Of a stretch of 64,000 bases of DNA, positions 1,354-62,774 are shown one piece after another. Position 1 is the first letter of the stretch. Every line of letters begins with the position of its first letter. The position numbers and the translations under genes were made by a program. A model generated the notes under the pieces. That model had not been told where the DNA came from, made no database searches, and was given only the letters and a program-made list of their open reading frames with translations. Origin of the DNA: Halorubrum halophilum (GTDB taxonomy: Archaea; Halobacteriota; Halobacteria; Halobacteriales; Haloferacaceae). The DNA is taken from assembly GCF_000739595.1 (NCBI RefSeq), contig NZ_BBJP01000081.1, positions 1-64,000 on the forward strand, given 5' to 3'.

Positions 1354-1531
1354 CTCGGCCACCGACTGCGGTTCGCTTTTTAAAAGGACGGAGCTGCGGA
1401 ACCCGTAGCGGTTGGCACGGGCATCCCGACAGCAGTCGATACGGACACCCCAGCGATTGATAGCGGGAGTGGGTGTCTCAATGTGGTTGATTGGTTCTTT
1501 ATAAGTGGACGAGTGGTGTTGCTGTCGACCG

Positions 1532-1537
1532 TTTATA
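1532..1537 (+). promoter_or_regulatory. TATA-like box of element copy 1
   Basis: TTTATA located 35 nt before the CCAAAG block. The same 35-nt spacing occurs in copy 2 (14122 to 14157) and copy 3 (55637 to 55672) although the sequence between varies. A first box lies 34 bp upstream (1498-1503), also matched in copy 3. Confidence 0.5.
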
Positions 1538-1555
1538 CGTGATCGATGACCTCGC

Positions 1556-1817
1556 GGTGAAGGCCTCCAAAGCCCCAGTCGCTGCGGGCGGCGCACGCTC
1601 GCTGTGCTCCTCACTCAGTCGCTCACTTCGTTCGCTCCCTCGTTGCGGTGCTTGCGTCGCCTGCGCCGCCCGCAGCGACTGCCCCTTTGAGTCCCACCCA
1701 CCCCGCACCGCGACCGCACCTCTCACCTCCCCAGCCTCGTCACCGGCGCACAGCGCCGGCGACCTCGCACCGTCGGTGAGCGGCCCTATGGGCCGCTCAC
1801 CGGGGCGCGCCACCGCA
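1556..1817 (+). ncRNA. candidate structured RNA of element copy 1
   Basis: If the second TATA-like box (1532-1537) is used, transcription would start roughly 22-28 nt downstream, just before the CCAAAG block and the 20-bp stem. The region then forms a long hairpin plus two short hairpins before the CACCGCA tail. Transcription and the exact ends are inferred; the pairing is read directly from the sequence. Confidence 0.4.
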
Positions 1818-13995: not shown

Positions 13996-14030
13996 ACTTT
14001 GTTAAGATCTGGCTCTGTTGAAATTCTCTT
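13996..14030. mobile_element. possible insertion-sequence end
   Basis: The segment around AGATCTGGCTCTGTTGAAAT (about 14005-14024) resembles the outer end of some haloarchaeal insertion sequences, which often begin with a GGCTCTGTTGAAA-like inverted repeat. No matching opposite end or transposase is present in the window, so this is at most a fragment at the right border of the accessory island. Confidence 0.25.
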
Positions 14031-14116
14031 CTTCAGACAGATTATCGACTGAAACGTCCGATCCTTGAAGAGTGTTCTTGATCGGTTGCAGGAGCAGACG
14101 CGTCGGATCGCTGGAT

Positions 14117-14606
14117 GATTGTTTATAAGGAATTCGCGACTTCCCGGTGAAGACCTCCAAAGCCCCAGCCGCTCGCTTATAAATGGTTGACTGTTGCTCG
14201 GCTGAGAACACCACCAGAGCCCCAGCCGCGAGGACGGCGCACACTCGTTGCGCTCCTCGTCACTCGCGTTGCTCGTTCCTGCGGTGCTTCCGTCGTCTGC
14301 GCCGTCCTCGCGACTGCCCCTTTGAGTCCCGTCCCGCACCGCACAGCACCATCGGAAGACGGTCCTGCTCGCTCACTCCGTTCGCTGCGCAGGCTGCGAC
14401 TTCCGTGCACCCGCTCGCTCCCTGCGGTCGCTCTCGGGACCGCAGCCTCACGCCTCCCCAGCTTCGTCAGTCGCCTCCGCTTCGCTCCGGCGACTGACTC
14501 CAGCGAGAATCGAAGATTCTCTGGCAGCCGGCGCGTAGCGCCGGCGACCTCGCACGCGCTCCTCGCGACCGCCGAGGGCGGCCGCTCGGAGGCGCGCGCC
14601 ACCGCA
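14117..14606 (+). repeat. dispersed stem-loop element, copy 2 (no terminal repeats seen)
   Basis: Related to copy 1. It begins with TTTATA at 14122-14127, 35 nt before CCAAAG at 14157, then has one extra 57-bp unit with its own TATAAA-type box (14168-14224). The main stem pairs 14223-14241 with 14298-14316 (19 bp, one G-T type mismatch). Further hairpins lie at 14468-14496, 14505-14521 and 14527-14545 (8-bp arms, 3-nt loop), then a GC-rich hairpin near 14555-14600 and the CGCCACCGCA tail. The terminal inverted repeats of copies 1 and 3 are not seen. It ends about 80 bp before the YchF start codon. Confidence 0.8.
14146..14606 (+). ncRNA. candidate structured RNA of element copy 2
   Basis: Predicted to start downstream of either TATA-like box and to fold into the long stem plus a series of GC-rich hairpins. 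It carries an additional hairpin-forming insertion (about 14460-14525) relative to copies 1, 3 and 4. Transcription is inferred only. Confidence 0.35.
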
Positions 14607-14686
14607 TCGTCTGACTCCATTTATACCACCTCCATGTCCCCGTGGCCGACCGAAAGGCGCTTTTCGCGGGGCCACGACCGTCGGGT

Positions 14687-55559: not shown

Positions 55560-56006
55560 GATCGATAGCGGGAGTGAGTGTTGTAGATCTGAGTAGGTAT
55601 TGTTTATAAGTGATCGAGTGGTGTTGCTGACGGCTGTTTATAAGGATACGGCGACACTGCGGTGAATACGTCCAAAGCCCCAGTCGCTGAGGACGACGCA
55701 CGCTCGCTGCGGTCCTCGGTCACTCGCTTCGCTCGTTCCCTGTGGTCCTTACGTCGCCTGCGTCGTCCTCAGCGACTGCCCCTTTGAGTCCCACCCCGAC
55801 CACACCGCACGGCCTCACGCCTCCCCAGCCTCGTCGCTGGCGCCGTCGGCGCCAGCGACTCCCTCGCGCGTGCTGACTCGCGGCCTGTCGGCCGCTCGCA
55901 GGCACGCGCCACCGCACCGTTTTTATAAACGATCGTCGCCATCCCCACGGCTATTTAAATACGGTCTTACCGCCAACGATCTTCACACTCACTCCTGCCA
56001 TCGATC
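55560..56006 (+). mobile_element. dispersed stem-loop element, copy 3 (447 bp, terminal inverted repeats)
   Basis: Bounded by imperfect terminal inverted repeats: 55560-55583 and 55983-56006 share GATCGAT(A/G)GC(G/A)GGAGTGAGTGT in opposite orientation. Two TATA-like boxes lie 34 bp apart (55603-55608 and 55637-55642), as in copy 1. The main stem is a perfect 20-bp pair (55681-55700 with 55759-55778), and its sequence differs from that of copy 1 on both arms in matching fashion. Hairpins with 12-bp arms (55833-55859) and 6-bp arms (55880-55895) follow, then the CGCCACCGCA tail. No ORF. It lies directly downstream of the hybrid kinase gene. Confidence 0.85.
55661..55916 (+). ncRNA. candidate structured RNA of element copy 3
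   Basis: Predicted to begin about 22-28 nt after the TATA-like box at 55637-55642, and to contain the long stem, two short hairpins and the CACCGCA tail. Transcription and ends are inferred from the fixed spacing of promoter and structure shared with copies 1 and 2. Confidence 0.4.
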
Positions 56007-62310: not shown

Positions 62311-62482
62311 AGCCGCTCGCTTATAAATAGTTGAATTCGGATCGATAGTGGCAGCTTCCAAAGTTCCAGCCGCTTGTTTATAAGTGGCTGATTTCGGATC
62401 GGCGGCGAACACTTCCAAAGCCACAGTCGCTTATTTATAAATGGTTGACCGCGAATCGACGGTGAAGACCCCCAAAGCCCCA
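62311..62482 (+). repeat. 57-bp tandem TATA-plus-CCAAAG units (three copies)
   Basis: Unit starts are 62311, 62368 and 62425, with the next at 62483 (57, 57 and 58 bp). Each unit carries a TTATAA-type box and a CCAAAG(C/T)(T/C) block before a GCCGCT/GTCGCT. A single equivalent unit is found in copy 2 (14168-14224). They look like duplicated promoter plus stem-initiation segments. Confidence 0.85.
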
Positions 62483-62774
62483 GCCGTGCTCGGCGAACCC
62501 CAGCGACGCAAGCACCGCAAGGAGCGAGTGAAACGAGCGACTGAGGAGCGCAGCGAGCTGTGGGAGCCGAGCACGGCTGCCCCTTTGAGTCCCACCCGAC
62601 CGCACAGCACCGCCGGAAGACGGTCGCCTCGCTGCGCTCGGCGCTGCGACTTCCGTGCTCCCGCTCGCTCCCTTCGGTCGCTCACGGGACCGCAGCCTCA
62701 CGCCTCCCCAGCCTCGTCGCGCGACGCTCCTCGCGGTCGCCGACGGCGACCGCTCGGAGGCGCGCGCCTCCGCA
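62461..62774 (+). ncRNA. candidate structured RNA of element copy 4
   Basis: Would start after the third 57-bp unit and fold into a 14-bp stem with an inverted loop, followed by the triloop hairpin and conserved tail. The three upstream units could give three alternative starts. Transcription is inferred only. Confidence 0.35.

Follow-up and report, generated by a model that had tools for sequence, protein, structure and literature searches.

Haloarchaeal MITEs, such as those of Haloquadratum walsbyi, are short, transposase-less sequences with inverted terminal repeats that depend on a trans-acting transposase (PMC3119063). Palindrome-associated transposable elements (PATEs) have no terminal inverted repeats and cause no target duplication (PMC3119063), and among the REP/BIME sequences of bacteria the individual REPs measure 20-40 bp (PMC2817692, PMC3733652). 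The window analysed here, a 64,000-nucleotide stretch of a Halorubrum halophilum contig, contains four copies of a palindromic repeat that recalls each of these systems in part, and a literature search for Halorubrum MITEs, REPs or palindromic repeats returned no description of this family. The repeat is probably a non-autonomous, palindromic mobile DNA element that is MITE-like in its long form. Its copies and their parts are as follows.

1390-1978, + strand: copy 1, long MITE-like form; limits inferred by comparison with an empty site, outer ends degenerate
1390-1404 and 1963-1978: degenerate outer ends of copy 1, GGAGCTGCGGAACCC and GGGTTTCAGCAGCGTC
Flanks of copy 1: AAAAGGAC and AACAGACG, resembling an 8-bp duplication of ACCAGACG, which is single in the empty site of genome G182 (L217)
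1455-1470, + strand: copy 1, inner left inverted repeat GATTGATAGCGGGAGT
1894-1909, - strand: copy 1, inner right inverted repeat (ACTCCCGCTATCGTTC on the + strand)
1498-1503, + strand: copy 1, left outer AT box TTTATA, 33 nt inward of GGGAGT
1532-1537, + strand: copy 1, left inner AT box TTTATA, 34 nt after the first box and 35 nt before CCAAAG
1567-1695, + strand: copy 1, hairpin P1, CAAAG-CCC-CAGTCGC..GCGACTG-CCC-CTTTG, with a CCC/CCC internal loop; DNA fold z -5.65
1682-1695: copy 1, P1 foot CCCCTTTGAGTCCC
1726-1768, + strand: copy 1, CCTCCCCAGCCTCGTC (1726-1741) and hairpin P2
1769-1817, + strand: copy 1, hairpin P3 with foot GCGCGCCACCGCA (1805-1817)
1824-1829, + strand: copy 1, right inner AT box TTTATA, mirror partner of the box at 1532
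1857-1862, + strand: copy 1, right outer AT box TTTAAA, mirror partner of the box at 1498
14011-14640 (end approximate), + strand: copy 2, with GGCTCTGTTGAAAT ahead at 14011-14024
Parts of copy 2: AT box at 14122, orphan unit at 14157, box TTATAA at 14177, stem-forming unit at 14214, P1 foot at 14317-14330
3' side of copy 2: P2/P3 with extra hairpins, end GCGCGCCACCGCA at 14594-14606, right box at 14620
55560-56006, + strand: copy 3, long form, between inner inverted repeats at 55560-55575 and 55991-56006
Parts of copy 3: left boxes at 55603 and 55637, right boxes at 55922 and 55954, P1 at 55672-55792
62315-62774 (start approximate), + strand: copy 4, short form, with three tandem 57-nt units
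Tandem units of copy 4: CCAAAG at 62358, 62415 and 62472; boxes at 62321, 62377 and 62434
Feet of copy 4: P1 foot at 62580-62593, foot GCGCGCCTCCGCA at 62762-62774

The window copies belong to an abundant family. A 411-base query taken from copy 1 has 52 matches in its own genome (Halorubrum, 3.68 Mb), where an exact 16-mer of the 3' foot occurs 112 times. This 16-mer was found in 11/11 sampled Halorubrum genomes, at 4 to 131 copies each, and in 0/184 genomes from other genera of the same order; at the level of the exact 3' foot, the repeat is thus specific to the genus Halorubrum, while sequence matches beyond it exist and are weak. Plasmid records gave two weak matches, neither with an annotated feature, and phage records gave none. 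Elements are 400-700 bp in overall length, the long form measuring about 580-700 bp, and share a core of about 250 nt or more in the order GGTGAACACCTCCAAAG, hairpin P1 with its CCC/CCC internal loop, foot CTGCCCCTTTGAGTCCC, P2, P3 and GCGCGCCACCGCA. In the long form, this core of interchangeable hairpins P1, P2 and P3 is enclosed by outer ends resembling GGCTCTGTTGAAATCC, inner inverted repeats GATCGATAGCGGGAGTGGGTAT and two AT boxes (TTTATAA/TTTAAA) inside each end. The internal loops CCC/CCC and TC/TC are conserved, and the lengths of P1 and of the spacers vary outside multiples of three, leaving no conserved reading frame through the element. Some copies carry tandem 51-57-nt units upstream, contain nested double hairpins within their stems, or lack P1.

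Double hairpins of about 50 nt recur inside P1, P2 or P3, in either orientation, in loci L174, L175, L177 and L184, and constitute a nested, smaller repeat family. P1 is absent from L172, L173 and L185, apparently deleted between or near its feet, and in copy 4 (62472-62593) and L180 the P1 interior runs, as judged by eye, in the opposite sense to that of copy 1, the impression being of a loop flipped round while its arms stayed in place. An automated motif test had scored no copy with an inverted P1 interior, a count that is set aside in view of these two cases. All 67 distinct tandem units, drawn from many loci including 14157-14214 and 62358-62472 of the window, have lengths that are multiples of three (51, 54, 57, 63, 69 and 72), and the commonest offsets of the AT boxes likewise step by three, shared ancestry lowering the number of independent cases. 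Despite the 67/67 lengths divisible by three, a coding potential of these units was rejected, as they show no codon-position signature and contain stops in every frame.

Comparison with the described systems reveals a mixture of likenesses. Like the haloarchaeal MITEs, the element is short, dispersed and free of a transposase, with inverted ends and, in some copies, putative target duplications. It differs in carrying three interchangeable hairpins, tandem 51-57-nt units and AT boxes placed in mirror symmetry, and in having many copies that lack inverted repeats and sit at sites shared by several species. With PATEs it shares the lack of a transposase, the palindromes, the heterogeneity of copies and their large number per genome, whereas its long form bears inverted repeats, with near-duplications at a few copies; the short copies are without inverted repeats. 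More than 100 extragenic palindromic copies per genome and hairpin mosaics recall REP/BIME sequences, yet the core lies well outside the 20-40-bp range of REP palindromes and the ends of the long form are DDE-like. By definition, the element is neither a PATE nor a REP; judged from its sequence, it appears to work like a MITE, whose short, transposase-less body, terminal inverted repeats and empty sites its long form displays.

In the first-pass annotation, the phasing of the AT boxes relative to the hairpins was taken to suggest an encoded RNA. In copies 1, 2 and 3, TTTATA at 1532, 14122 and 55637 lies 35 nt ahead of CCAAAG at 1567, 14157 and 55672; copies 1 and 3 have a first box 34 nt further upstream (1498 and 55603), and the sequence separating the second box from the GGTGAA leader differs among copies. 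The first-pass annotation had reported this spacing, the additional box and the variable bases that follow, and its coordinates are all correct. Boxes are present far above chance expectation: TTATA occurs 28-43 nt upstream in 37/44 own-genome copies (shuffled mean 0.6) and in 49/92 copies of an unbiased set gathered without regard to the presence of a box (shuffled mean 0.9). Since the three copies are homologous, however, their equal spacing reflects inheritance rather than three independent cases. The distance described as fixed is exactly 35 nt in copies 1-3 but varies from 27 to 41 nt across the family, taking the value 35 in 39 of 136 copies, 38 in 15, and other values within that range in small numbers. 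In copy 4, which the annotation had not named, the box at 62434 precedes CCAAAG at 62472 by 38 nt. The phasing claimed for copy 2 holds as a distance between 14122 and 14157, but the CCAAAG at 14157 marks an orphan tandem unit; the 3' foot pairs instead with a CCAGAG unit at 14214, which has its own box, TTATAA at 14177, in the -38 register.

What the boxes are phased to becomes clearer when the opposite end of the element is considered. Among 33 long copies, the commonest distances at the left end are 33 nt from GGGAGT to the first box and 34 nt from there to the second, and those at the right end, read inward, are 36 nt and then 34 nt, placing the boxes 33 and 67 nt from the inverted repeat on the left and 36 and 70 nt from it on the right. 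Two boxes were found in 29 of these copies on the left and in 28 on the right. The right inner box follows the P3 foot by only 9-11 nt in most copies and cannot, being so near, serve the hairpins in the manner proposed for the left box. The mirrored arrangement implies that the spacing is a property of the two ends of the element and not of the stem; the symmetric boxes may mark places close to the ends where the DNA is bound or bent, or may be promoters that face inward from either side. The result is also a caution: where repeat copies are homologous, phased TATA boxes should not be read as a sign of a promoter before the two ends of the element have been set side by side.

Transcription of the element is nevertheless possible, the box being conserved in long copies. 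In a gapped alignment of the long subfamily, box columns show 2.3% mismatch versus 22.6% for the other columns up to the leader, and of random 6-mer pairs only 0.18% reach the conservation of the boxes; an early ungapped comparison, in which box columns seemed no better conserved than their neighbours, was overturned by this alignment. Boxes of real genes in the same loci peak 31 nt before start codons, so that a start driven by the element's box would fall 4-7 nt before CCAAAG; the left boxes may give rise to a short transcript. In comparison with haloarchaeal TATA-type promoters (PMC4983044), the TTTATA motif and a plausible spacing to the start are shared, but the box is mirrored at both ends and no BRE-like signature was seen in its flanks, as judged against a training set of only 27 promoters. 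The suggestion that the element looks transcribed is therefore favoured by conserved boxes at a promoter-like distance and weakened by flanks that, in this small comparison, did not resemble those of promoters and by the absence of the box from about half of the unbiased copies, which keep their hairpins all the same.

A related proposal is that the boxes are working promoters for read-through into neighbouring genes or for transcription antisense to gene tails, with the hairpins serving as insulators or terminators. Conservation of the boxes would be expected under such a role, as would the placement of the element: 62/126 copies with two called neighbours lie in tail-to-tail gaps, compared with 169/797 gaps in the same loci (a background that includes the elements' own gaps), and only 15 of 126 are placed head-to-head. 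Against this, copies between same-direction genes show no orientation bias (++ 23, -- 26, based on crude gene calls), the element is inverted at an orthologous site, and box flanks score -1.90 and -2.79, no better than TTTATW sites in general (-1.63), with held-out promoters at -0.76 and few training sites available. We consider a read-through function highly improbable.

The stems offer a separate means of distinguishing DNA from folded RNA. In P1, P2 and P3 taken together, 3721 pairs are Watson-Crick, 15 are G.T and 39 are A.C, while 21 tRNAs of the same loci, with 474 pairs, comprise 443 Watson-Crick, 31 G.U and 0 A.C pairs; the share of G.T is thus 0.4% in the element, compared with 6.5% G.U in the tRNAs. 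As 18 of the 39 A.C cells fall at one P1 position, no firm strand asymmetry can be derived from them. Hairpin arms differ widely between copies, those at orthologous sites included, yet change as matched pairs, and covariation involving wobble pairs on the transcribed strand, the mark of a structured RNA, was not found. Such perfection of the stems fits renewal of the arms at the DNA level; it could also reflect young or converted copies, and the comparison with tRNAs lowers the standing of the RNA reading. On the strength of these pair counts, the hairpins look maintained as DNA and not as folded RNA.

This bears directly on the possibility of a multicopy structured non-coding RNA gene, in which a TTTATA-driven start 4-7 nt before CCAAAG would yield a functional P1-P3 RNA. 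Boxes conserved in long copies, a box distance compatible with haloarchaeal start sites, a stable fold and strong pairing despite divergent arms all agree with it, whereas the near-absence of G.U pairs, the lack of a box in about half of the unbiased copies, the symmetry of the boxes with the element ends, the clean absence of P1 from some copies and an Rfam search that gave nothing convincing speak against it, and such a gene appears very unlikely. The encoded RNA favoured by the first-pass annotation also fails to accommodate stems that change without G.U intermediates, the lack of polarity relative to genes and the inversion at an orthologous site; an encoded, selected RNA finds no support here and the claim is unlikely. 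The passive debris that the annotation had set against it comes nearer the mark, albeit as mobile DNA.

Evidence of mobility comes from the ends of the element and from comparison of sites among species. The sequence GGCTCTGTTGAAATCC is present at both outer ends in loci L026 and L120 and at one end in others, the outer ends often being degenerate. L026 has a near-8-bp candidate target duplication, GTGCTTTT/GTTCTTTT, and L120 one matching at 6/8 bp, while that of copy 1 is degenerate relative to the empty site of G182 and those of most copies are unrecognisable. Inner inverted repeats occur in long copies; recognisable ones are absent from 68/92 copies of the unbiased set. At the site of copy 1, the element is lacking in every one of the 18 other species for which a comparison was possible, and G182 has a single ACCAGACG where the own genome carries AAAAGGAC and AACAGACG on the two sides. 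The site of copy 3 is filled in the same orientation in G014, in reverse in G011 and G214 and apparently also in G182, and is empty in G223 and several others. The features of a MITE observed are therefore a short, transposase-less body (as judged by size and the lack of a conserved frame), empty sites in relatives, and terminal inverted repeats, the last in the long form only. Two further ideas were rejected: insertion of the core into an empty MITE, since 0/14 further left-end matches were empty and all retained at least part of the core, and an origin of the boxes as target duplications, since within a copy the left and right boxes resemble each other no more closely than boxes taken from different copies do.

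The repeat might alternatively be of REP/BIME type and be mobilised in single-stranded form by a Y1 (IS200-type) transposase, an enzyme recognising hairpins that contain unpaired bases. The conserved CCC/CCC and TC/TC internal loops would suit such recognition, the mosaics with nested double hairpins and the more than 100 extragenic copies are reminiscent of it, and three Y1_Tnp genes in the genome are putative partners. The element is, however, about ten times the size of a REP, and the combination of long inverted terminal repeats with near-8-bp duplications suggests that the long form uses a DDE-type mechanism, making this route quite unlikely. For a MITE-like mobile repeat, which we regard as the probable explanation, a transposase supplied in trans would move the element by its ends, and the AT boxes would be where the end complex binds or bends the DNA, or else promoters that face inward incidentally. 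Hairpin arms would be renewed as pairs by template switching, inter-copy conversion or insertion of ready-made hairpins, and the element would survive where harm is least, in tail-to-tail gaps. Where a short copy lacks inverted repeats, it may be an older one whose ends have eroded, or may have spread in some other way. A more unusual account seems rather doubtful: a mobile DNA repeat, present in more than 100 copies, whose arms a novel DNA process replaces as matched pairs at fixed sites, whose tandem units change length only in steps of three, and which may also be kept under transcription by promoters facing inward from its two ends. With stems that change in matched pairs without wobble intermediates, the repeat offers a natural system for testing how archaeal chromosomes renew long palindromes, and the family would need annotation in Halorubrum genomes, where it could pass for an RNA gene.

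The outer end of the element also flanks unrelated cassettes with perfect 8-bp duplications in the own genome. Those at L249 (63-653), L253 (33-1311), L255 (37-1404, with a nested one at 133-791), L247 (1166-2024) and L248 (683-2030) lack a transposase and carry passenger genes; they have 16-nt inverted ends GGCTCTGTTGAAATCC, one cassette lying within another, and their duplications are ATTGGAAC, AAGACGAC, ACCTCGCC, AGCGTAAC, GACAATAT and GAAAAATT. IS6-type genes were rejected as the source of the partner transposase because their ends do not match. An intact-looking insertion sequence at L252 (579-1518) encodes a 283-aa DDE_Tnp_1 transposase and has ends GGCTGTGTTGAATC and an 8-bp duplication GGTCGGAT; its end being related to GGCTCTGTTGAAATCC, it is a candidate partner for the ends of that type.
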